Position numbers and translations under genes: made by a program. A stretch of 64,000 nt of DNA from Bryobacteraceae bacterium (GTDB lineage Bacteria > Acidobacteriota > Terriglobia > Bryobacterales > Bryobacteraceae). The stretch spans positions 1 through 64,000 of the forward strand of contig JABAQT010000020.1 of the NCBI GenBank assembly GCA_019187195.1, in the 5' to 3' direction. Under the pieces are notes generated by a model. The model worked only from the letters and a program-made list of their open reading frames with translations, did no database searches and had not been told where the DNA came from. Positions 25,001 to 39,676 of the stretch are shown piece after piece. The number at the start of each line of letters is the position of its first letter. Positions within the stretch are counted from its first letter, which is position 1.

Positions 25001-25482
25001 CCGAAGGCCAGTTGGGCGAGGACGAGCGGAGTGCGGCCGTTCATGGGCATGTTTTCGATCTGGCGGGAGTTGATCACCTGTCCGGTCGAGGCGGTGGCGG
25101 TTTCAAGCAGGGACGATTCGGCGGTGATAGTGACCGACTGCCCGACATCGCCCAACTCGAGGGCGATGTCGAGCTGCTGCCGCTCATTCGTGGCTACCCG
25201 GAGATTGGGGTTCGAATATCGCTTGAAGCCGGGCGCCTCCGCTGTTACCGTATAAGGACCGGGCGGCAGGAACGGCAGGGAATAGGATCCGTCGGCGCTC
25301 GAGGTGGTTTGAAACCGGGCGCCGTTGTCATTATTGACGGCTGTGATTTTCACGTTAGGGACGAGGGCTTGCTGCTGGTCGATGACGCGGCCGCCCATGC
25401 TGCCCCGGAATTCCTGCGCGAACGCGGATGTTGCCAGGAGAGACACGAATACCCATTCGATGCGGACGATACGGCGTAGCAT
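22039..25482 (-). CDS. Large TonB-dependent receptor with carboxypeptidase-like N-terminal domain
   Basis: The protein has 1147 residues and starts MLRRIVRIEWVFVSLLATSAFAQ, a signal peptide. Residues about 25-115 are a CarboxypepD_reg-like domain (GRVIDQQQALVPNVKI, DGSYSLPFLPPGPYTV). The plug region includes ENMPMNGRTPLVLAQ and SNELLIDGAPDT. A very long beta-barrel ends in the aromatic terminus MGLRLTW typical of outer-membrane proteins. This size and layout match the expanded Oar-like receptor group of Acidobacteriota. The ligand is unknown. It is transcribed away from the act-cox operon, and the shared 244-base region holds that operon's promoter. Confidence 0.86.
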   Translation of the reverse strand: MLRRIVRIEWVFVSLLATSAFAQEFRGSMGGRVIDQQQALVPNVKITAVNNDNGARFQTTSSADGSYSLPFLPPGPYTVTAEAPGFKRYSNPNLRVATNERQQLDIALELGDVGQSVTITAESSLLETATASTGQVINSRQIENMPMNGRTPLVLAQLAFGVTPNSDPKFSRPFDNSGPSDFSMGGAPSRSNELLIDGAPDTTRNSRVAYNPPVDAVQEVKVETFQSDAAYGHTGGGTVNVVMKGGTNDFHGAAYDFNQVSRLAATPYFTNRSGQKKPAGNFNQYGVNGGGPILIPKVFNGRNRLFWFFGFEGIRDSFPEPLTGTVPTQAERGGDFSQLLTVGANYQLYDPLTGVQEGSRVRRQPFAGNILPASRLSAIAKNYMQFYPLPNQTGRPDGQDNYLANSVRSDVYDSELGRLDFNLSDRHKFFYNFRHNARVENRGNAFKNIATGNFLGRINWGSMIDDVYTFSPTLVMNTRLNWTRFTESNTRPSDGYDFTQLGFSKSLLAYSARHVLPTIDLDRFADVGNSGGDNTPFDIFQLFLSLTKIHGKHVLKFGTDVREYRESSASYGNSSGAYQFRSDLLRGPLDNSTGAPLGQDLASFLLGYPTGGSWDINTFRTQQAKYYALFLQDDFRVRSNLTLNLGLRFERDLPTTERFNRSVNGFDTTSPSPIAKQAEAAYAAKPAPGLPVDLFKVRGGVLFAGPNGNEIYHTQSGYFSPRFGFAWTPAGPGGKTVIRGGAGVFVFPIGTTGLNQLGFSQSTPILGASATGGLRPTSTLENPFPLGIAQPTGDSLGLATFLGRNVAFFNPNPLNPYSARWTLDIQRELSRNLVFEIGYTGNRSVHLPIDQQLGYVPRQYLSTLPYRDQPTIDRNTANVDNPFAGLLPGTNLNGSRVQFNQLVRAYPQFTGSNPVTRQSANDGGSYFHGLQVRLEKRFSSGLQFLANYQFARTVEETSRLNDFSGPEKRNGSIDRPHRFVTSFSYDLPFGHGKPLGGGAGPVLNRIIGGWIINGIYSYESGAPAGDWGNVIYLGGDLHWNARGVDGAFDTTRFNRVSSQQLSDNVRTFPTRFANLRQDATNNVDASIMKNTPIKERVMLQFRTEFFNAFNHAVFSAPQLSPTNSNFGNITGVTNLERHIQMGLRLTW

Positions 25483-25588
25483 TTCTTACAGGCTCCCCAA
25501 AAATTGAAGGCAGGCGCGGGCCCGCCCGATGTCACACCAACTGGGAGAGATGATACTACAACACGGAGAGAGCCGGGAAGAGTCATAC

Positions 25589-25617
25589 TGTCAAACAGTA
25601 ATTATTTTCGTTTGACA
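25589..25617. promoter_or_regulatory. Inverted repeat, candidate operator of the act-cox operon
   Basis: TGTCAAAC (25589-25596) and GTTTGACA (25610-25617) are perfect inverted 8-mers around 13 bases. The right arm is the -35 box of the operon promoter. A second, nested palindrome TACTGT-CAA-ACAGTA lies at 25586-25600. A dimeric repressor or activator site is inferred from symmetry and position. Confidence 0.45.
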
Positions 25618-25641
25618 AGAGACTTCGAACGCCCCTATAAT
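25612..25641 (+). promoter_or_regulatory. Consensus sigma-70 promoter of the act-cox operon
   Basis: TTGACA (25612-25617) and TATAAT (25636-25641) are both full consensus with an 18-base spacer. Transcription would start near 25648 and leave a leader of about 80 bases before actA. Such an exact promoter is rare in GC-rich DNA and suits a strongly expressed respiratory operon. Confidence 0.75.
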
Positions 25642-25726
25642 TGAGGCTTCTACCTGGGTCCAATATCGTTCAGCACTAGTTTTGGAGAGGATGTAGCGGC
25701 GTAACTTCCCGCCTTGCAGGTGGCTA

Positions 25727-26440
25727 ATGTCTCAGATTTTTCACCCAAGCACCAATAGTGTAGCGAAGGTCAGTATCGTCGCCGTGCTGCTGCTGGCAGG
25801 CGGTGCTGGCTACGCGCTAATGGGGGTCAACCGGTCCCCGTATGTATCACGGGCGAAGATCCCGTTCGATCAACCGGTGCCGTTTTCTCATAAGCATCAC
25901 GTGGCGGGGCTCGGGATCGATTGCCGCTATTGTCACACCACCGTTGAACGGACCGCCTTTGCGGGAATTCCGGAAACCGAGACTTGCATGAGCTGCCATT
26001 CGATGATCTGGACGAACGCGAAGATCCTCGAGCCGGTGCGGCAGAGCTGGGCAACCGGGAAGAGCCTGGAATGGACCCGCGTCCATGACCTTCCGGGTTT
26101 TGTCTACTTCAACCACAGCATCCACATCAATAAAGGGATGGGTTGTTCGGAGTGCCACGGACGAGTGGACCAGATGCCGTTGATGTACCAGGAAAACACT
26201 CTCTACATGGAGTGGTGCCTCGACTGCCACCGGAATCCCGAAGCCCATGTGCGCCCTCGTGACAAGGTTTTTCAAATGGACTACAAACATCCCGAATGCC
26301 TTCCCGGGCTTGAGGGTGGGGAAGGCAAAGAGGGAGAGAAGCCAAAAGAACCCTGCGTTTCCCAGGAAGAACTGGGCAGGAAGCTAGTGGCCGAATACAA
26401 AATCCAGAAGCTGACGGATTGCTACACATGCCACCGATGA
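25727..26440 (+). CDS. actA: Alternative complex III pentaheme cytochrome ActA
   Basis: This 237-residue protein has an N-terminal membrane anchor (VAKVSIVAVLLLAGGAGYAL) and five CxxCH motifs: CRYCH, CMSCH, CSECH, CLDCH and CYTCH. FSHKHH and FNHSIH provide likely distal heme ligands. It is the multiheme cytochrome of the quinol:acceptor oxidoreductase that replaces the bc1 complex. It heads a 12-gene operon. The stop overlaps the actB start in ATGA. Its motif order is mirrored by the small cytochrome at 13694. Confidence 0.9.
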   Translation: MSQIFHPSTNSVAKVSIVAVLLLAGGAGYALMGVNRSPYVSRAKIPFDQPVPFSHKHHVAGLGIDCRYCHTTVERTAFAGIPETETCMSCHSMIWTNAKILEPVRQSWATGKSLEWTRVHDLPGFVYFNHSIHINKGMGCSECHGRVDQMPLMYQENTLYMEWCLDCHRNPEAHVRPRDKVFQMDYKHPECLPGLEGGEGKEGEKPKEPCVSQEELGRKLVAEYKIQKLTDCYTCHR

Positions 26441-29400
26441 GTGGAACACAACCTTTCAATATATTCGGGCAGGGCCCTCGACTGGATCTCGAGGCCGTGC
26501 GGGAACGGCTGAGCCGGAAATCCGGCCAGGAGTACTGGCGCAGCTTGGAAGAGCTCTCCGATACCCCTGAGTTCCAGGAGTTTCTCGACAACGAGTTTCC
26601 GCAGACCGGCGCGGACTGGCGGAATCCGCTGGACCGGCGGAACCTGCTCAAACTGATGGGAGCTTCCCTGGGGCTGGCGGGGCTGACGGCGTGCACACGG
26701 CAACCGCTCGAGAAGATTGTGCCTTACGTCAAGCCGCCGGAGGAGTTCGCGGAAAACATTCCGGTGCATTATGCGACTGCTCATTTGATGGGCGGATACG
26801 CGACGGGCGTGCTGGTGGAGAGCCACCAGGGCCGGCCGACGAAGGCGGAAGGGAACCCGGACCACGCCGGCAGCCTGGGAAGCACGGATATCTTCGCGCA
26901 GGCGAGCCTGCTGTCGTTGTACGATCCGGACCGGTCGAAGACGGTGTTGCGCGACGGGGAGATCAGCAACAACACGTCGTTCTGGGCGGCGCTGACGGTG
27001 CTGCGCGAAAAGCACTTCGAGGCCAAGGGCGCGGGGATGCGGATTCTCACCGAAACCATCACCTCGCCGAGCCTGCTCGAGTCGATGAAAGAGCTCCTGG
27101 CGATGATGCCGGAGCTGAAGTGGCATGTTTGGGATCCCGTGAATCCGGACGGGGCGCGCGAGGGCGCGAAGCTGGCGTTCGGCGAGCCGGTGTCGCACCA
27201 CTACAAACTCGAAACGGCGGACGTGATTTTCTCGCTCGACGCGGATTTTCTCTACACCGGCGTGGGCGCGGTGCGCTACGCCAGAGAGTTCGCGGCGCGG
27301 CGCCGGCCGGAAGAGGGCCGGAAGCGGATGAACCGCTTTTACGCGGTGGAAACGCACCCCTCGGTGACAAGCGTGTTGTCGGACCACCGGTTGGCCGTGA
27401 AGCCGAGCGAAGTGGAAGCGGTCGCGCGCAGCCTGGCCGTGAAGCTGGGGGTGGCGGCGGACGCGCCGGGAGTGCTCCCCCAGGACGCCTGGATCGCCGC
27501 GCTGGCAAAGGACCTGGCAGCGCATAAGGGGACGAGTCTCGTGGTGGCCGGCGAGCATCAGCCCGCGATCGTCCACGCGCTGGCGCACGCCATCAACGAG
27601 AAATTGGAGAACGCGGGCAAGACCGTAATCTACACGGAGCCGCTCGAGGGCAACCCGGTCTCGCACGCCGGTTCGCTCAAGGAACTGGCGGCGGACATGA
27701 ACGCCGGAAAGGTGGAGACGCTGCTCATCCTGAGCGCGAATCCGGTCTACACGGCTCCCCCGGACCTGAACTTCCGCGAAGCGTTCCTGAAGGTGAAGAA
27801 CCGCATCCAGTTGAGCCAGTACCACGACGAGACAGCGGCGCTGTGCAACTGGCACATTCCGGAAGCGCACACGCTCGAGAGCTGGGGCGACGCGCGCGCC
27901 TATGACGGGACCGTGACCCTGATGCAGCCCCTGATCGACCCCCTCTACAGCGGCAAGACGGCGATGGAAATCATCTCGGCCCTCGCCGGCGTGCAGGGAA
28001 CCAACTATCAGAACTGGCGCCGCTACTGGCGCGGGAAAATCGCCGCGCAGGATTATGACGCCCAGTTGCAGAAAGCCCTGCATGACGGATTTTGGGCGAA
28101 TTCGGCTCCTCCGCCGAAGACGGTGGCGGTGAAGGGGGACCTGAAAGCGGTCGCCCCAACGCCGGTGGGTGGCGGCATGGAGATCAGCTTCCGGCCGGAT
28201 CCCACGGTTCTCGACGGGCGGTTCGCCAACAACGGATGGCTGCAGGAACTGCCGAAGCCTGTCAGCAAAGTCACCTGGGACAACGCCGCCTATATTGCTC
28301 CATCAACGGCGCAGAAGCTGGGAGTGACCACGGACGACGTGGTCACCATCAAAGCCGGCGGCGCGCATGTGAAAGCGCCGGTGTGGGTGACCCCCGGTCA
28401 GGCGCGCGACACGGTGACGGTACACCTCGGCTACGGACGCGCGAGCGCGGGCAGGATCGGGACCCGGATCGGCTTTGACGCCAACGCGCTGAGAACTTCC
28501 GCGGCGCTGTGGGCTGCCTCGGGAGTCGAGATCACGCCCGCGGGGAGCCGCTACAAGCTCGTGTCCACGCAGACGCACCACGGGATACAGCAGATTACCG
28601 AGGCCGACGAGGCGCAGAGCGAGCGCCGCCTGGTCCGCGTCGCCACCGAAGAGGAGTATCTGAAAAAGCCGGATTTCGCCAGGGAGATGGTCGAGGATCC
28701 GGCTCCCGCGTTCAGCCTCTACTCGCCGGGCTTCGACTATTCGCAGGGGTACCGCTGGGGAATGGCGATCGACCTCAACGCCTGTAACGGCTGCGGCGCG
28801 TGCACGATTGCCTGCCAGGCGGAAAACAACATCGCGACGGTGGGCAAGGAAGAGGTCCTGCGCGGAAGGGAGATGCACTGGATCCGCGTCGACCGCTACC
28901 ACAAGGGCGAACTCGACAATCCGGCGGCGTACGCGCAGCCGGTGCCGTGCCAGCATTGCGAGAACGCTCCGTGCGAGACTGTATGTCCCGTGGCGGCGAC
29001 CGTGCACAGCAGCGAGGGGATCAACCAGATGGTTTACAACCGCTGCGTGGGCACCCGCTACTGCTCGAACAACTGCCCCTACAAGGTGCGGCGCTTCAAC
29101 TTCTTCCTCTACAGCGACTGGGATACGCAGAGCCTGTGGGGTTTGCGCAATCCGGATGTTACCGTGCGCAGCCGCGGCGTGATGGAAAAGTGCAGCTACT
29201 GCATCCAGCGGGTGAGCCGGGCGAAAATCCAGGCGGAAAAGGAAGACCGCCGGGTGAGGGACGGCGAAGTGGTGACAGCCTGCCAGCAGGCGTGCCCCAC
29301 GCAAGCCATCATGTTCGGCGACATGAACGATCGCGAGAGCAAGATCGCCAAGTGGAAAGGCGATGCCAGGAATTACGGAATTCTCACGGACCTCAACACC

Positions 29401-29463
29401 AAGCCGCGCACGACGTACCTGGCGCGCCTGGAGAATCCGAACCCTGAACTAACGCAGGCATGA
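26437..29463 (+). CDS. actB: Alternative complex III iron-sulfur/molybdopterin-like subunit ActB
   Basis: The start at 26437 gives an ATGA overlap with actA; ATG 26419 is an upstream alternative. The protein has 1008 residues. Near residues 67-84 is a twin-arginine-like element with a lipobox-like end (RRNLLKLMGASLGLAGLTAC). The middle resembles a molybdopterin oxidoreductase but, as known for this family, the cofactor is not expected. The C-terminal third has ferredoxin motifs CNGCGACTIAC, CQHCENAPCETVCP, CVGTRYCSNNCP and CSYCIQRV with CQQACP, enough for four Fe-S clusters. It passes electrons from quinol toward the heme subunits. Confidence 0.9.
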   Translation: MSGTQPFNIFGQGPRLDLEAVRERLSRKSGQEYWRSLEELSDTPEFQEFLDNEFPQTGADWRNPLDRRNLLKLMGASLGLAGLTACTRQPLEKIVPYVKPPEEFAENIPVHYATAHLMGGYATGVLVESHQGRPTKAEGNPDHAGSLGSTDIFAQASLLSLYDPDRSKTVLRDGEISNNTSFWAALTVLREKHFEAKGAGMRILTETITSPSLLESMKELLAMMPELKWHVWDPVNPDGAREGAKLAFGEPVSHHYKLETADVIFSLDADFLYTGVGAVRYAREFAARRRPEEGRKRMNRFYAVETHPSVTSVLSDHRLAVKPSEVEAVARSLAVKLGVAADAPGVLPQDAWIAALAKDLAAHKGTSLVVAGEHQPAIVHALAHAINEKLENAGKTVIYTEPLEGNPVSHAGSLKELAADMNAGKVETLLILSANPVYTAPPDLNFREAFLKVKNRIQLSQYHDETAALCNWHIPEAHTLESWGDARAYDGTVTLMQPLIDPLYSGKTAMEIISALAGVQGTNYQNWRRYWRGKIAAQDYDAQLQKALHDGFWANSAPPPKTVAVKGDLKAVAPTPVGGGMEISFRPDPTVLDGRFANNGWLQELPKPVSKVTWDNAAYIAPSTAQKLGVTTDDVVTIKAGGAHVKAPVWVTPGQARDTVTVHLGYGRASAGRIGTRIGFDANALRTSAALWAASGVEITPAGSRYKLVSTQTHHGIQQITEADEAQSERRLVRVATEEEYLKKPDFAREMVEDPAPAFSLYSPGFDYSQGYRWGMAIDLNACNGCGACTIACQAENNIATVGKEEVLRGREMHWIRVDRYHKGELDNPAAYAQPVPCQHCENAPCETVCPVAATVHSSEGINQMVYNRCVGTRYCSNNCPYKVRRFNFFLYSDWDTQSLWGLRNPDVTVRSRGVMEKCSYCIQRVSRAKIQAEKEDRRVRDGEVVTACQQACPTQAIMFGDMNDRESKIAKWKGDARNYGILTDLNTKPRTTYLARLENPNPELTQA

Positions 29464-29482
29464 CAGGAGAAGGACGCGAGAA

Positions 29483-30868
29483 ATGGAGAGAGTAGAGAAG
29501 GGGACATTGACGGCGCAGACGGGTCCTGATCCAATGCTGGCTCCAGGCCACAGTTATGCGACCGTGACGGACAAGATCGCGGCGGTTCCGCTCGAGGTGG
29601 GGTGGCCCAAGTTCTGGATTGTCGGCTTCACCATCGCATTCAGCATTCTGATGATGCTGCTGGCCACAATCACCTACCTGGTATTGAAAGGGATCGGCAT
29701 CTGGGGCGTGAACGTGCCGGTCGGCTGGGGCTTCGACATTATCAACTTTGTGTGGTGGATCGGCATCGGACACGCCGGAACGCTGATATCGGCGATTCTG
29801 CTGCTGTTGAAGCAGCAGTGGCGGATGTCGATCTCCCGCTTCGCCGAAGCGATGACGCTGTTCGCGGTGGCGTGCGCGTTCCTGTATCCCGCCCTGCACA
29901 CCGGCCGCCCGTGGGTGGCCTACTGGCTGCTGCCGTATCCCAATACGATGTCGATGTGGCCGCAGCCGCGCAGCCCGCTGCTGTGGGACGTGTTCGCCGT
30001 CTCCACCTACGCGACCATCTCGCTGGTCTTCTGGTATGTGGGCCTGATACCGGACCTGGCGAGCATGCGCGACAAGGCGAAAAGCAAGTTCGCGCAGATC
30101 AGCTATGGAATGCTGGCGCTAGGCTGGCGCGGATCGGCGCGGCACTGGAACCACTATGAAATCGCGTCCCTGATTCTGGCGGGCATGTCGACGCCGCTCG
30201 TTCTTTCCGTGCACACCGTGGTGAGCTTCGACTTCGCGGTGGGTCTGATTCCCGGGTGGCATACGACCATCTTCCCGCCCTACTTTGTGGCGGGCGCCAT
30301 CTATTCCGGCTTCGCCATGGTGTTGACTCTGGCCATACCGCTGCGGGCCTGGTACAAGATGGGCGACTTCATCACGATGAAGCACATCGACAACATGTGC
30401 AAGGTGATGCTGGCCACCGGGCTGATCGTCGCCTACGGATACTTCATGGAAGCGTTCATGAGCTGGTACAGCGGAAACCTGTGGGAAATGTTCATGTTCA
30501 AGAACCGCACGACGGGGCCCTACGGGTGGAGCTACTGGACGCTGATTCTGTTCAACATTCTGACGCCGCAGGTGCTGTGGTCGAAGAAGGCGCGCGCCAA
30601 CGTGCCGCTGGTGTTCGTGATCTCGCTGGTCATCAACATCGGCATGTGGCTCGAGCGTTTCGTGATCATCGTAACCAGCCTGCACCGCGATTTCCTTCCC
30701 TCGAGCTGGGGGATGTACTACCCGACGAAGTATGACTGGAGCATGTTTATCGGCACGATGGGGCTGTTCCTGACGCTGCTGTTCGTCTTCGTGCGCCTGC
30801 TGCCGGCCATCTCCATCTTCGAAGTGCGGACTCTGATTCCGCGAACGGGGAAAGGAGGCAGCCACTAA
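29483..30868 (+). CDS. actC: Alternative complex III NrfD-like membrane subunit ActC
   Basis: The protein has 461 residues and about ten hydrophobic membrane segments. It matches the NrfD/PsrC family: FDIINFVWWIGIGHAGTLIS near residue 85, and a long central series including SVHTVVSFDFAVGLIPGWH. In ACIII this subunit, together with ActF, is thought to hold the quinol site. A purine-rich AGGAGAAGGA precedes the ATG. It is followed without a gap by actD (stop, then ATG at 30869). Confidence 0.9.
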   Translation: MERVEKGTLTAQTGPDPMLAPGHSYATVTDKIAAVPLEVGWPKFWIVGFTIAFSILMMLLATITYLVLKGIGIWGVNVPVGWGFDIINFVWWIGIGHAGTLISAILLLLKQQWRMSISRFAEAMTLFAVACAFLYPALHTGRPWVAYWLLPYPNTMSMWPQPRSPLLWDVFAVSTYATISLVFWYVGLIPDLASMRDKAKSKFAQISYGMLALGWRGSARHWNHYEIASLILAGMSTPLVLSVHTVVSFDFAVGLIPGWHTTIFPPYFVAGAIYSGFAMVLTLAIPLRAWYKMGDFITMKHIDNMCKVMLATGLIVAYGYFMEAFMSWYSGNLWEMFMFKNRTTGPYGWSYWTLILFNILTPQVLWSKKARANVPLVFVISLVINIGMWLERFVIIVTSLHRDFLPSSWGMYYPTKYDWSMFIGTMGLFLTLLFVFVRLLPAISIFEVRTLIPRTGKGGSH

Positions 30869-31402
30869 ATGCGCAAACCTGTGTACGGCCTCATGGCCGA
30901 ATTCGAGACGCCCGAGCAACTGGTGCGCGCGGCCGAGGCCGCGCATCACGAAGGTTACCGGAAGATGGACGCCTACTCGCCGCTGCCGATCGAGGAACTG
31001 CATCACGCCATGCACCTGCCGGATTCGCCCCTGCCGAAGTTCGTGCTGGTGGGGGGAATTCTGGGAATGATCGGCGGCTTCGGGTTGCTCTACTGGATCG
31101 CGGCCATCACCTACCCCCTGAACGTCGGCGGCCGGCCGTACAATAGCTGGCCGGCGTTTATCCCCATCACGTTCGAGACGACGGTGCTGCTGGCCGGTCT
31201 CACGACACTGGCGACCCTGTTGTTTCTGTGCGGGTTTCCCATGCCCTACCACCCGGTGTTCAACGTGCCCCGGTTCAAGCATGCCTCGCGCGACCGGTTC
31301 TTTCTCTGCATCGAGGCGGAGGACGCGAGGTTCGACCTGCAGCGCACAAAGGAATTTCTGCAAACCCTGCATGCCCATGAAGTGGCGGAGGTGGAAATTT
31401 GA
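30869..31402 (+). CDS. actD: Alternative complex III membrane subunit ActD
   Basis: The protein has 177 residues. It has the family N-terminus YGLMAEFETPEQLVRAA, a soluble first part with DAYSPLPIEEL, and two membrane segments (residues about 55-80 and 100-125). It ends with a soluble domain containing RFFLCIEAEDARFD. It belongs to the DUF3341/ActD family and is a small structural subunit of ACIII. Its TGA stop overlaps the TTG start of actE. Confidence 0.88.
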   Translation: MRKPVYGLMAEFETPEQLVRAAEAAHHEGYRKMDAYSPLPIEELHHAMHLPDSPLPKFVLVGGILGMIGGFGLLYWIAAITYPLNVGGRPYNSWPAFIPITFETTVLLAGLTTLATLLFLCGFPMPYHPVFNVPRFKHASRDRFFLCIEAEDARFDLQRTKEFLQTLHAHEVAEVEI

Positions 31403-32013
31403 GGTACGCATTCCTCATCGTGGGTGGATTGACGCTGCTCGGCTGCCGCCAGGACATGCATGATCCGCCGCGCTACCGGCTGGACGCGGGAACGGATTTC
31501 TTTGGAGACCGTCGCGCGGCGCGGCCCGCGATCAAGGGCACCGTCGCGCGCAACATGGTCAAAAGCGCCAACCCCGCCTTCTGGACCGGGAAGGCGGACG
31601 GGAAGGAAGTGGAACAGCTTCCGGTCCCCTTCAACAGGGAGATGCTCGAGCGGGGGCGGGACCGCTATAACATCTACTGCACTCCCTGCCACGGTTATAC
31701 GGGCTATGGCGATGGAATGATTGTGACGCGCGGGCTGAAAACCCCGCCGTCCTATCACACCGAGGCGCTGCGCGACGCGCCCATCGGACATTTCTTTGTC
31801 GTGATTACCAACGGAAGCGGAGCGATGGCGAGCTACGCGGCCCGCATCCCGGCCAGGGACCGCTGGGCCATTGCGGCGTATGTCCGCGCTCTGCAACAGA
31901 GCCAGAACGTGAAAGTGGCCGCGTTGACGGCGGATGAGATGCGGAAAGTGGACGCCGGTCCGGCTATCACCGGGCCGCCTCCGCCGCCCAGGGAGAAGGA
32001 GGCTGCGAAGTAA
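31399..32013 (+). CDS. actE: Alternative complex III mono-heme cytochrome lipoprotein ActE
   Basis: The start is TTG, overlapping the actD stop as TTGA. The 204-residue product has a lipoprotein signal ending in LLGC (Cys16). One heme motif, CTPCHGYTGYGDG, lies near residue 94, and a Met ligand may be in the GSGAMASYAARIP segment. In ACIII this periplasmic domain can hand electrons to the oxidase. It overlaps actF in TAATG. Confidence 0.88.
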   Translation: MRYAFLIVGGLTLLGCRQDMHDPPRYRLDAGTDFFGDRRAARPAIKGTVARNMVKSANPAFWTGKADGKEVEQLPVPFNREMLERGRDRYNIYCTPCHGYTGYGDGMIVTRGLKTPPSYHTEALRDAPIGHFFVVITNGSGAMASYAARIPARDRWAIAAYVRALQQSQNVKVAALTADEMRKVDAGPAITGPPPPPREKEAAK

Positions 32014-33176
32014 TGACGGAAGCGATGCGGCCATATCTGGACCGTTTACAGAGCCGCGCCCTCGTGGTGGGCGTGGTTGGTCTGCTGGCGACGGCAGCCG
32101 GGTTTGCGATGAACTCGGAGCAGTTTTACCGCTCCTACCTGCTGGCCTTCATGCTGTGGTCGGGAGTGGCGTTGGGGAGTCTGTCGCTGCTGATGCTGCA
32201 CCACATGGTGGGCGGCGGATGGGGTGTCGCCATCCGCAGGGGCCTCGAGGCGGGGACGCGGACGCTCCCCCTGGTCGTGCTCCTGTTCCTCCCCCTCGCC
32301 TTCGGAGTGCACAGCCTCTATGAATGGTCTCACCCGGACGTGGTGGCGCGGGACCCCGTTCTCCAATCGAAGCAGATGTACCTGAACCAGACGGGATTCT
32401 ACGTCCGCGCGGCGATCTACTTCGTCATCTGGTTTTTCCTGACGGCGCGGCTCAACAAAATGACCGAAGAGCAGGAGCGGGTCGGCTACTGGGCCATCCG
32501 GCCGCGGCTGCAGAGGCTGAGCGCGCCGGGCATCATCGTCCACAGCCTGTGCATCACCTTCGCCTCGGTGGACTGGGTGATGTCCATCGAACCGCATTAC
32601 TTCTCGACAATCTACGGCGCCATCTTCATGGTGAACCAGGCCCTGTCGACCTTCGCCGTAATGATCTTCGTACTGTGCCTGCTGTCGACCAAGGCCCCCA
32701 TGCAGGGCGTGGTCAAGACACAGACGTATCACGATCTCGGAAGCCTGATGTTCGCCTTCAACATGCTGTGGGCCTATGTGAGCTTTTCGCAGTTGCTGAT
32801 TGTGTGGTCGGCGAACCTGCCCGAAGAGATCGCCTACTATGTGAAGCGCATGCGCGGGGGCTGGGAATATGTGGGGCTCGCCGTGTTCCTGTTCCACTTC
32901 TGCGTGATCTTCGTGCTCCTGCTGATGAAGAAGATCAAGCGCAATCCGCACCTGCTGCGCAGAGTGGCGGCCTACGTGCTACTGATGCGGGTGTTGGATC
33001 TGTTCTGGGTGATCCGGCCGGCGTTCAGCCACGGAATGGAGAACGGAGCTCCGGCTTCGCACTTCAGCATTCACTGGCTGGACATCGCCGCTCCCGTGGC
33101 GCTCGGCGGAATCTGGATGGCGTTTTTCGCCTTCCAATTGAAAAAGCGGCCGCTCGAGCCGCTGGCACTCGAGTAG
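32013..33176 (+). CDS. actF: Alternative complex III membrane subunit ActF
   Basis: The protein has 387 residues and about ten membrane segments. It is related to ActC/NrfD (HHMVGGGWGVAIRRGLEAG near the N-terminus, FASVDWVMSIEPHYFSTIYG in the middle). In ACIII it forms the second large membrane subunit. It starts on the last base of the actE stop codon. The small membrane protein at 33190 follows after 13 bases. Confidence 0.89.
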   Translation: MTEAMRPYLDRLQSRALVVGVVGLLATAAGFAMNSEQFYRSYLLAFMLWSGVALGSLSLLMLHHMVGGGWGVAIRRGLEAGTRTLPLVVLLFLPLAFGVHSLYEWSHPDVVARDPVLQSKQMYLNQTGFYVRAAIYFVIWFFLTARLNKMTEEQERVGYWAIRPRLQRLSAPGIIVHSLCITFASVDWVMSIEPHYFSTIYGAIFMVNQALSTFAVMIFVLCLLSTKAPMQGVVKTQTYHDLGSLMFAFNMLWAYVSFSQLLIVWSANLPEEIAYYVKRMRGGWEYVGLAVFLFHFCVIFVLLLMKKIKRNPHLLRRVAAYVLLMRVLDLFWVIRPAFSHGMENGAPASHFSIHWLDIAAPVALGGIWMAFFAFQLKKRPLEPLALE

Positions 33177-33189
33177 GGGACTAACAGCA

Positions 33190-33594
33190 ATGGAGACCAT
33201 TCATCATCACATTCCGGCGGCCGAACCCGAAGCCACGGACGCGAACATTCCTCTGGTGGCGTGGTCCACAATCGGCATTCTGACCACGCTGGCCGTGTGC
33301 ATCATCTTCGCGGGGCTGATGTTCCGCTACGAGGAAAGCGCCCTGCCGAAGCCTTCGGGAATCTTTTCGAATCAGCGGCATCTGCCCCCGTCGCCGCGCC
33401 TGCAAGCCTTTCCGGCCAAGGACCTGGCGGCGTTTCAGGCACAGCAGTTGAGCCGGGCGGAAAGCTACGGCTGGGTGGATAAACAAGCCGGCGTGGCCCA
33501 CGTCCCCGTCGAAAAGGCGATGGAGATGTTGCTCAAGAGCGGCCTCCCCGTTGCCGCCAACCCGGCGGACGCCACGAAACCGGCAAAGCAGTAA
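33190..33594 (+). CDS. Small membrane protein inside the act-cox operon, unknown role
   Basis: The protein has 134 residues. It has a His-rich start (METIHHHIP), one membrane segment near residues 23-45 (LVAWSTIGILTTLAVCIIFAG), and a soluble tail with a PSPRLQAFPAKDLAAFQAQQ motif and a GWVDKQAGVAHVPVEKAMEM stretch. I do not recognise a defined family. Its place between actF and the SCO gene suggests a role in assembly of ACIII or the oxidase, perhaps linking them; this is inference. Confidence 0.75.
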   Translation: METIHHHIPAAEPEATDANIPLVAWSTIGILTTLAVCIIFAGLMFRYEESALPKPSGIFSNQRHLPPSPRLQAFPAKDLAAFQAQQLSRAESYGWVDKQAGVAHVPVEKAMEMLLKSGLPVAANPADATKPAKQ

Positions 33595-33602
33595 GAGGAA
33601 AC

Positions 33603-34403
33603 ATGCGCAGGTGGATTGTAGCATTGGGGATCGTTTCAGCGGCATGGGCGCAGTCCTCCCGGCAGAATCCGGGCGGCCAGACGCAGTTGTTGAAACAGGT
33701 CGCATTCGAGCAGAAGTTGAACGCACAGCTCCCGGTCGAGTTGCCGTTCCGGGACGAGACCGGGCGGACCGCTCCGCTCGGCGAATACTTCCAGGGCAAA
33801 CCGGTCGTGCTGGTCCCGGTCTATTACGAATGCCCCATGCTGTGCAATCTCACCATGAGCAGCCTGGTGAAAACGCTGAAGGCGCTGCCCCTCACGCCGG
33901 GCAAGGATTTTCGCGTGGTGATGTTCAGCTTCGATCCGCGTGAGAAGCCGGAATTGGCGGCGGAGAAAAAGAAGGCCTACCTGAAGCGGTATGAGAGGAC
34001 GGGGACCGACGCGGGGTGGAGCTTCCTGACCGGCGAGGAAGCGAACATCCGGAAGCTGACCGAATCGATGGGTTTCCGGTACGCGTTTGATCCGACGATT
34101 CAACAGTACGCGCACGCGGCCGGATTCGTGGTGGCCACGCCCGACGGGCGGCTGTCGCGATACCTGTACGGCATCGAGTATTCGGCGCGGGATTTGCGCC
34201 TCGGGATTCTCGAGTCCTCGAAGGGGAAGATCGGCGATCCCGTGGGGCAACTCCTGCTCATGTGCTTTCACTACGATCCCTCGAGCGGCAAGTATACGCT
34301 CGAGGTGCTGACGGCCCTGCGCGCGGCCGGCGTGCTGACGCTGGCCGTGATTGGTGGATTTCTTATTGTCAGTTTCCGGAGGGAGAAGCGCCAGAAGGCC
34401 TGA
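33603..34403 (+). CDS. SCO1/SenC-type copper chaperone
   Basis: The protein has 266 residues and a signal peptide (MRRWIVALGIVSAAWAQ). The thioredoxin-like fold has the copper-binding CPMLC motif in YYECPMLCNLTMSSL and a later HAAGF segment supplying a probable His ligand. A membrane anchor lies at the C-terminus (GVLTLAVIGGFLIVSF). Known SCO proteins deliver copper to the CuA site of oxidase subunit II; coxB with that site is the next gene, 21 bases on. Confidence 0.86.
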   Translation: MRRWIVALGIVSAAWAQSSRQNPGGQTQLLKQVAFEQKLNAQLPVELPFRDETGRTAPLGEYFQGKPVVLVPVYYECPMLCNLTMSSLVKTLKALPLTPGKDFRVVMFSFDPREKPELAAEKKKAYLKRYERTGTDAGWSFLTGEEANIRKLTESMGFRYAFDPTIQQYAHAAGFVVATPDGRLSRYLYGIEYSARDLRLGILESSKGKIGDPVGQLLLMCFHYDPSSGKYTLEVLTALRAAGVLTLAVIGGFLIVSFRREKRQKA

Positions 34404-34424
34404 GCCGGCGGCAAGAGATCTCGC

Positions 34425-35365
34425 ATGAACAAGACATTCTCTTTACTACCTGAAGCCGCGAGCAATCTGGCCACGCAGATTGACGACCTGATGACGGCGG
34501 AGATGCTGTTTTCCGTGTTCTTCACGGCTTTGATTTTCGTTACCGTATTCGTATTCGCGATGAAATACCGGCGGAGATCGGCGGAGGACCGGCCGCCGCA
34601 CATCCACGGTTCGCTGTTGCTCGAACTGGCGTGGTCGCTGATTCCGTTCGCCATGATCCTGGGGTTTTTCGTCTGGGGCGCGAACATCTACTTCCGCGCC
34701 TACGCCACGCCGCAGCCCGACGCGATGGAGATTTTCGTGACCGGCAAGCAGTGGATGTGGAAGGTGCAACATCCGGAAGGGCAGCGCGAGATCAATGAAC
34801 TGCATCTCCCGCTGGGGCGGCAGGTGAAGTTCACCATGATCAGCGAGGACGTGATTCACAGCTTCTTCATCCCGGCGTTCCGCCTGAAGAAGGACGTGAT
34901 ACCGGGGCGCTACACAAGCTACTACGTGACGCCGACAAAGCTCGGGGATTACCATCTGTTCTGCGCCGAATATTGCGGAACACAGCATTCGGGGATGATC
35001 GGGACCGTGCACGTCATGCAGCCCACCGAATACGCCAAATGGGCCGGCGGCGGAGACGAGTCGATGACGGCGCGCGGCGAGGCCCTCTTCAACCAGTACG
35101 GCTGTTCGACCTGCCATCTCCCGGACGGCAAGGGACGCGGACCGTCGCTCGTGGGCGTGTACGGCAGCACGGTGAAACTGCAGGGCGGAAAGACGCTGAA
35201 GGCCGATGACGCCTACATCCGCGAATCGGTGCTGAACCCGCGGTCGAAAATCGTCGACACTTATGCCGCCATCATGCCCACCTTCCAGGGGCAGATCAGC
35301 GAAGAGGGATTGTTGCAGATCATCGCGTATGTCAAGAGTTTGGAAAAAGAGGAGGGAGAGCAGCA

Positions 35366-35369
<4 letters not shown>
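34425..35369 (+). CDS. coxB: Cytochrome c oxidase subunit II, caa3 type
   Basis: The protein has 314 residues. Two membrane helices occupy about residues 25-46 and 65-87. The CuA domain is complete: [13 protein letters not shown] supplies the first His and [13 protein letters not shown] supplies the two Cys, Glu, His and Met. A C-terminal cytochrome c domain carries [14 protein letters not shown], which makes this a caa3-type oxidase with its own heme c. The stop overlaps the coxA start in ATGA. Confidence 0.93.
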
Positions 35370-37001
<1,632 letters not shown>

Positions 37002-37009
<8 letters not shown>

Positions 37010-37670
37010 TCACGCCGTTGCTCTCGATTCGCACGACGAAAAACACGTAGCGCACCAGTTTTTCAGCGCCCAACAGCAGTATGAGTCGGGCAACCTGGGG
37101 ATGTGGCTCTTCCTGGCCACCGAAGTCATGTTCTTTGGCGGCATGTTCGCCACCTACACGATCTACCGCATCTGGTATCCGGACGCTTTCCGCATCGCCA
37201 GTTCGGCGACCAACGTGTTCCTGGGGGCGGTCAACACGGTGGTGCTCATTGTGTCGAGCCTCACCATGGCGCTCGCGGTCCAGAGCGCCCAGTTGGGAAA
37301 ACAGAAACGTCTCGTGGCGATGATCGTCCTCACCATGATCTTCGGCTCGATCTTCCTGGGCGTGAAGGCCGTCGAATATACGCACAAATGGCAGGAAGGG
37401 CACGTTCCCGGACCGTACTTCCACTGGGACCAGGCCGAAGGCGGCCGCGAGGTGCAGATTCTCTTCTGCCTCTATTTCGCCATGACGGGCATGCACGCCG
37501 TGCATATGATTGTCGGGTTGGGCATCATGGCTTGGCTGCTGGTCACGGCGATGAAGGGGCGATACGGACCGAAATACTATAATCCCGTCGAGATCAGCGG
37601 GCTCTACTGGCACTTCGTGGACATCGTGTGGATTTTCCTCTTCCCGCTCCTGTACCTGATCGAGAGATGA
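37002..37670 (+). CDS. coxC: Cytochrome c oxidase subunit III
   Basis: A TTG start inside the coxA 3' end gives 222 residues with about five membrane helices. Family signatures are [17 protein letters not shown] near residue 31 and [20 protein letters not shown] at the end. Subunit III stabilises the proton uptake path of subunit I. Its stop overlaps the coxD start in ATGA. Confidence 0.92.
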
Positions 37671-38020
37671 ACATCATGCAGACCGAACTACACGCGGAAA
37701 ATCACATTGCATCGACGAAGATGTATGTGACTGTCTTTTTAGCGCTGATCGTGGGCACAGTGTTGACCTACCAGGTATGGAAGATCAACCTCGGCCTGCT
37801 CAGCGTCATGATCTCCCTCGGAATTGCCGTGTGCAAGGCGACGCTGGTGATCCGCTACTTCATGCACGTGAAGTGGAGCCACATCCTGTCGAAGATGGCC
37901 CTCGCGGGGGCGGTCCTGTTTCTCGCCATCATGCTCGTGCTGATGTCCATGGACTACGTTTCGCGCGGATGGCAGCCGCCTTCCATGCCGTGGGATCATC
38001 ACCAGGTCTTGAATAACTAG
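37667..38020 (+). CDS. coxD: Cytochrome c oxidase subunit IV
   Basis: The start at 37667 makes an ATGA overlap with coxC and gives 117 residues; ATG 37676 is an alternative. Three membrane helices are present, with the family segment CKATLVIRYFMHVKWSH in the middle. It is a small structural oxidase subunit and the last gene of the operon. The next gene is convergent, 15 bases away, with no recognisable terminator. Confidence 0.87.
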   Translation: MNIMQTELHAENHIASTKMYVTVFLALIVGTVLTYQVWKINLGLLSVMISLGIAVCKATLVIRYFMHVKWSHILSKMALAGAVLFLAIMLVLMSMDYVSRGWQPPSMPWDHHQVLNN

Positions 38021-39301: not shown

Positions 39302-39676
39302 ATGTTTCCAGCCAGACTAAACAACCCCGAGAAGAAATATCAGGATCAGCATCTCTTCTTTGACTTCCACAACCTCTCCGCCTATGTCGATTTGCGTGAG
39401 GTTCTTCTCACGCGCAAAGAGCATGCCTTACTTGGCCTTCTGTTGGACAACGCCGGCGAGATCGTCCGCCGCGAGATCCTTCTCGAGAAAATCTGGGGGT
39501 ATGGACGCGGCATCCGCACCCGCACTCTCGATGTGCACATCCGCCGCCTTCGCAAGAAGCTGTTTCCCTATGGTGACACCTATATCGAAACCATCTTCGG
39601 GGCCGGATACCGTTTTCAGCGCTACCGTGAGCCGCGCGGCTACCCGAACTACGTTCCGGAACTCGTCGCCGTCTAG
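39302..39676 (+). CDS. Orphan OmpR/PhoB-type winged-helix regulator without receiver domain
   Basis: The protein has 124 residues, preceded by a purine-rich AAAAAGGGG ribosome site. Residues about 35-108 are a Trans_reg_C winged helix: LTRKEHALLGLLLDNAGEIV, the recognition helix region RTRTLDVHIRRLRKKL, and the wing ETIFGAGYRF. There is no N-terminal phospho-receiver, only about 30 residues of unassigned sequence, so it is not phosphorylation-controlled in the normal way. No kinase gene is adjacent, though a soluble kinase lies at 41015. Direct repeats upstream suggest it regulates itself. Confidence 0.84.
   Translation: MFPARLNNPEKKYQDQHLFFDFHNLSAYVDLREVLLTRKEHALLGLLLDNAGEIVRREILLEKIWGYGRGIRTRTLDVHIRRLRKKLFPYGDTYIETIFGAGYRFQRYREPRGYPNYVPELVAV

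Follow-up and report, generated by a model that had tools for sequence, protein, structure and literature searches.

By literature search, little appears in print on the control of alternative complex III operons, and we compare the locus reported here with well-known operators. The E. coli LexA box is CTGT-N8-ACAG; Crp/Fnr-type sites are dyads of even length with an N4 or N6 center; and GalR represses by upstream contact from the external gal operator near −60. The E. coli PdhR box (AATTGGTnnnACCAATT; GntR/FadR family) is a 17-bp dyad, with two 7-bp halves around 3 bases, that is placed at cyoABCDE and ndh (PMC7660256).

The locus reported here is a real, conserved and ordinary regulatory promoter; its kind is well known and its spread is one genus. 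It is found in an uncultured Bryobacterales (a soil acidobacterium), in the window, that is, the whole stretch of 64,000 nucleotides that was analyzed, and it precedes genes for alternative complex III and cytochrome oxidase (Table 1). From its Pfam matches, the operon is assigned as an alternative complex III / caa3-type oxidase operon (act-sco-cox): the predicted actB-like product is a molybdopterin/iron-sulfur protein, ActC is NrfD-type, and the cox genes encode cytochrome oxidase subunits II, I, III, and IV. The order of the operon is kept in relatives as far as the contigs and the compared stretches extend; a search of viral contigs for relatives of ActA found none.

Table 1. Features of the promoter region and the downstream operon (positions in the window).
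Feature	Position	Strand	Basis and remarks
Inner palindrome, 17 bp, operator-like; genus consensus TTACTG-N5-CAGTAA, here ATACTG-TCAAA-CAGTAA	25585..25601	+	Sequence and genus conservation
Outer inverted repeat, TGTCAAAC-N13-GTTTGACA	25589..25617	+	Arms 25589-25596 and 25610-25617; perfect in the window genome only; judged coincidental
T-rich 8-bp stretch between the operator-like palindrome and the extended −35	25602..25609	+	Length 8 in 9/9; 3/8 columns invariant (8 distinct rows)
−35 box, TTGACA	25612..25617	+	Inside the invariant octamer GTTTGACA (25610-25617); 9/9 genus orthologs
−10 box, TATAAT	25636..25641	+	Spacer 18 in all 9; TATAAT in 8/9 and GATAAT in 1/9 (G001) genus orthologs
CTGGG, early transcribed leader (predicted)	25654..25658	+	C[T/C]GGG 12-13 bases past −10 in 8/9 genus orthologs; absent in L008
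Shine-Dalgarno-like AGGTGG before actA	25718..25723	+	Sequence
actA-like, multihaem cytochrome c, first operon gene	25727..26440	+	Pfam Cytochrome_C7 and class III matches
Remaining operon: actB, actC (NrfD), actD (ActD family), actE (cytochrome c), actF (by position), small ORF, SCO1/SenC, coxB, coxA, coxC, coxD	26419..38020	+	Pfam

The initial annotation described an outer inverted repeat with two 8-bp arms, a palindrome nested in its left arm, and a TTGACA-N18-TATAAT promoter; all three are present as letters. Its reading of the hexamers as a strong, full-consensus sigma-70 promoter before a respiratory operon is borne out: the promoter (25612-25641) matches the consensus at 12/12 positions, lies within the 16–19 spacing criterion of the sigma-70 type, and is found at 9/9 genus orthologs, one of them with GATAAT. 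The full-consensus promoter is clearly non-random, with one exact TTGACA-N16..19-TATAAT in the window vs none in 100 shuffles and two in the whole 5.83-Mb genome vs none for the reversed pattern. Transcripts from sigma-70 type promoters start ~7 bases after the −10 box, which would place the start of this transcript near 25648. The promoter scan of the window region reported no second promoter, and an Rfam search of 25400-25800 (up to E 1) gave no match to a riboswitch or RNA element. A divergent minus-strand promoter that uses the TTGACA in the left arm was considered and rejected: by eye, no −10-like box is found at 16–19 bases, and it is also disfavored by G009, where the divergent Oar gene is likewise present but the minus-strand hexamer differs from TTGACA.

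Judged on a single sequence, neither of the repeats is beyond chance: among dinucleotide shuffles of the 244-base intergenic region, 137/2000 hold an 8-bp inverted repeat (gap 3–30) and 650/2000 hold a 6-bp inverted repeat (gap 0–8). Comparison with relatives separates them; the inner palindrome is conserved and the outer repeat is not. The genus sample contained 12 genomes, nine with a close ActA ortholog and three (G002, G003, and G004) without, G003 having only a second-type paralog. CAGTAA-N8-GTTTGACA served as the anchor for locating the alignment rows, so its own columns are fixed by the search; all 9 orthologs nevertheless had it. Counts on eight rows omit G010, a near copy of G009. In all nine orthologs the blocks occur in the same order and without indels: a TTACTG-like half, 5 variable bases, CAGTAA, 8 T-rich bases, GTTTGACA, 18 bases, and TATAAT or GATAAT. 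The spacing of these blocks never shifts, while the distance from the −10 box to the ATG ranges from 35 to 129 bases.

The inner palindrome (TACTGT-CAA-ACAGTA at 25586-25600, within the 17-bp element in Table 1) keeps its dyad symmetry within the genus while its surroundings diverge, as is looked for in an operator. The promoter-proximal half, CAGTAA, is kept in 9/9 genus orthologs. The columns of the distal half agree in 5, 8, 6, 7, 8, and 8 of the 8 distinct rows vs a flank mean of 3.78 of 8 (no invariant column among 110). The two arms remain reverse complements of each other, with 42/48 arm positions paired in the 8 distinct rows (counted by hand); the distal half is degenerate in three of the nine genomes (G001, G009, and G010). 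The N5 center varies freely among the genus rows, and this fits the expectation for protein recognition. From these patterns, TTACTG-N5-CAGTAA is the real conserved element and most likely the operator of a dimeric regulator.

On another reading, the region has no regulator: a constitutive promoter of unusual strength would be extended upstream by a UP-like element, and the dyad would be incidental. The proximal half and the T-rich stretch are the best kept parts, 6-bp palindromes are found in shuffles at the frequency given above, and neither a regulon nor a linked regulator was seen (vide infra), all of which agree with such a promoter; however, conservation extends to the distal arm, which is the mirror image of the proximal arm on the other side of the free center, and CAGTAA is not A/T-tract-like, so we consider this reading unlikely. 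The palindrome and the T-rich run might also constitute a weak terminator or RNA hairpin that insulates the promoter from upstream transcription, and a stem-loop is indeed followed by T-rich DNA on the + strand. However, each stem contains only two G-C pairs, the pairs next to the center break without compensation, the terminator scan did not report the palindrome, the region has no Rfam match, and the upstream genes differ between genomes; we give this reading very little credence.

The initial annotation noted that the outer, 29-base repeat covers the −35 box and suggested strong expression under tight control by a dimeric regulator; on this view the repeat would be the operator, and the regulator would block the −35 box. 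The repeat is perfect in one of the 8 distinct genus sequences, that of the window genome, and none of the 8 other genus genomes keeps it. Across the eight rows, the numbers of left-arm positions (out of 8) that match are 8, 7, 7, 4, 5, 5, 4, and 7, and every change falls in the center of the inner palindrome. In favor of the outer repeat are its perfect 8+8 match in the window genome and a right arm, GTTTGACA, that does not vary within the genus; that arm is accounted for by the −35 box, however, and an equally long repeat arises in the shuffles as described. We read the outer repeat as a coincidence that pairs the −35 box with the variable center of the inner palindrome, and we find it very improbable that it is the true operator. 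The inner palindrome, said to be nested in the left arm, is present but spans the arm and protrudes on both sides. Control by a dimeric regulator is likely, with the adjacent dyad kept in the genus; tight control by a blocked −35 box does not follow, as 10 bp separate the end of the conserved site from TTGACA and neither the −35 nor the −10 box is overlapped. A lack of conservation upstream of actA in related genomes had been named in the initial annotation as grounds for refutation; it was not seen within the genus, where 9/9 orthologs show conservation. The lesson is that a longer, prettier repeat can mislead when a shorter one carries the conservation.

The distribution of the site is narrow. 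CAGTAA-N8-GTTTGACA was found in 4/399 genomes of the class, that is, the four sampled members of the genus (each at actA), and was absent from the 395 class genomes outside the genus; the reversed-pattern control matched 8 of the 399. Perfect TTACTGT-N3-ACAGTAA was found in 2/237 genomes of the family (G011, at actA, and G002, before an Oar-type receptor) vs 3/237 for the control, so the site in G002 is compatible with chance. A start was assigned in 89 of 110 actA-type loci (the starts of distant loci may be wrong); the block is present at 11 of these 89, representing the nine genomes, two of them also as public contigs, and the other 78 are without it. The window genome contains no close match to the site apart from the actA copy. 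As to a regulon, counts of the site in the 12 genus genomes at 0 and 1 mismatch did not exceed the reversed-pattern control (32 sites vs 46 for the control with ≤1 mismatch); 26 of the sites are not at actA, and in the 17 whose sequence was inspected no correctly spaced −35 box was present. Thus, the site is single-copy and genus-specific, without a visible regulon.

Other upstream regions were observed in the course of these searches. G002, a genus member without the actA block, has three consecutive TTACTGT/ACAGTAA half-sites immediately upstream of the gene for an Oar-type TonB receptor (L151, contig C292). In nine loci from other acidobacteria, several of them labeled Candidatus Sulfotelmatobacter (L075, L078, L079, L081, L082, L110, L119, L123, and L134), the best promoter-like site upstream of actA has GCGACA, not TTGACA, before TATAAT, another kind of conserved promoter for this operon. 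The second actA-type gene of the window genome (L169, contig C8), together with L166, L167, and L168, has a different conserved upstream block that contains AAGAAAGCTATAACG and is kept in G000, G003, G009, and G010; a frame that by eye resembles a response-regulator receiver domain ends just upstream of L169.

To the observed sequence, the conservation of the palindrome, spacing, and promoter, and the single close copy in the genome, we add an interpretation. We think it probable that the locus is a genus-specific regulatory promoter in which a full-consensus sigma-70 promoter is joined to a 17-bp dyad operator, at ~ −55 from the predicted start, for a dimeric factor encoded elsewhere. This transcription factor would bind TTACTG-N5-CAGTAA as a dimer; the site would be centered at ~ −55 and end where the proximal UP element (~ −46 to −38) would begin. 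The T-rich 8-mer sits where such an element would and may have this role; the bound dimer would make contact with the alpha-subunit domain of RNA polymerase at this stretch or push it aside. Contact with polymerase agrees with the fixed spacing and with the stronger conservation of the proximal half.

The direction of control is less clear from these features. The same 17-bp operator may be the site of an activator, in which case a dimer at ~ −55 would recruit polymerase in a class-I-like manner, by seating the alpha-subunit domain on the T-rich 8-mer. The exactly constant spacing to the −35 box in 9/9 orthologs, the contrast between an invariant proximal half and a distal half that decays in 3/9, and the position of the site clear of the core promoter all point in this direction; however, both hexamers are full consensus in 8/9 genomes, with little need for activation, and a center at −55 is not a canonical activator position. 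Activation is a substantial possibility to which we give somewhat less than even weight. A repressor or damper is slightly preferred, since both core hexamers already match the consensus fully, and an activator is nearly as likely; our confidence in the regulatory promoter as described and in the activator overlap, and both share the operator claim. Counting against a repressor, an operator that does not overlap the −35 or −10 box is unusual for simple repression. The strongest promoters of the genome appear to go with repressor-like sites because the only other exact TTGACA/TATAAT promoter (L148; contig C110, 3739-3767) has a palindrome between its boxes; downstream of it are a Fur/PerR-like ORF and an ORF for an HPII-like catalase, an arrangement that looks like PerR-type autoregulation.

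Candidates for the regulator were sought near the operon and by family. Outside the operon, synteny extends only to the closest relative, G009, and no gene for a regulator stays beside the operon across these genomes. A winged-helix gene (39302-39676) is located downstream of the operon in the window; it was rejected as a linked regulator because only act-sco-cox matched in G005, G007, G008, and G011 to the compared edges (that of G008 lies inside coxC). The BlaI/MecI/CopY family was also rejected, as the genome has 3 PF03965 matches and TACTGT-N3-ACAGTA is missing from the 300 bases that precede each of them. Genes with FCD domains occur in 12/12 genus genomes, including the three without the block. 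Among 33 FCD loci from 6/9 genomes with the block, the widest ortholog-like group is found in 5/6 and is missing from the 79%-complete G005; a TACTGT dyad was found upstream of 0/33 of these loci. A short distance upstream of one FCD-type GntR gene (L214, in G011) lies GCTTGT-CTG-ACAAGC, a GT-N3-AC site that may serve autoregulation. A literature search on the half-site letters TACTGT/ACAGTA as an operator or palindrome found no match.

Tentatively, the site may belong to a private, single-target regulator of the alternative complex III / oxidase operon of this genus, with one operator per genome held in fixed geometry to polymerase and the regulator encoded elsewhere; this type would be new for this respiratory complex, and we offer it as a conjecture that is plausible but short of likely. 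The defined 17-bp site makes the regulator directly fishable.

Several known systems resemble this locus in part. As for GalR, the dimer would be bound upstream of the −35 box, beside the contact region of the alpha subunit; in contrast to GalR, the site sequence is unrelated and no looping partner site was seen. The PerR-type promoter at L148 shares full-consensus boxes, the GTTTGACA context, and an associated palindrome; however, its palindrome lies between the boxes and before the regulator's own gene. The TACTGT / ACAGTA halves are like those of the LexA box, but LexA was rejected because 3 bases, not 8, separate CTGT from ACAG and the target is respiratory, not SOS. Crp/Fnr-type regulators were rejected because the dyad is odd (17 bp). 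A PdhR-like GntR/FadR core was rejected as well, with GGTnnnACC in none of the genus sites and the generic GT-N3-AC in only 5/9. The PdhR half-site is AATTGG (PMC7660256), whereas that at this locus is TTACTG; the likeness to the PdhR box lies in the 7-3-7 geometry, the 17-bp dyad, and the placement of the site before a terminal oxidase operon (PMC7660256).
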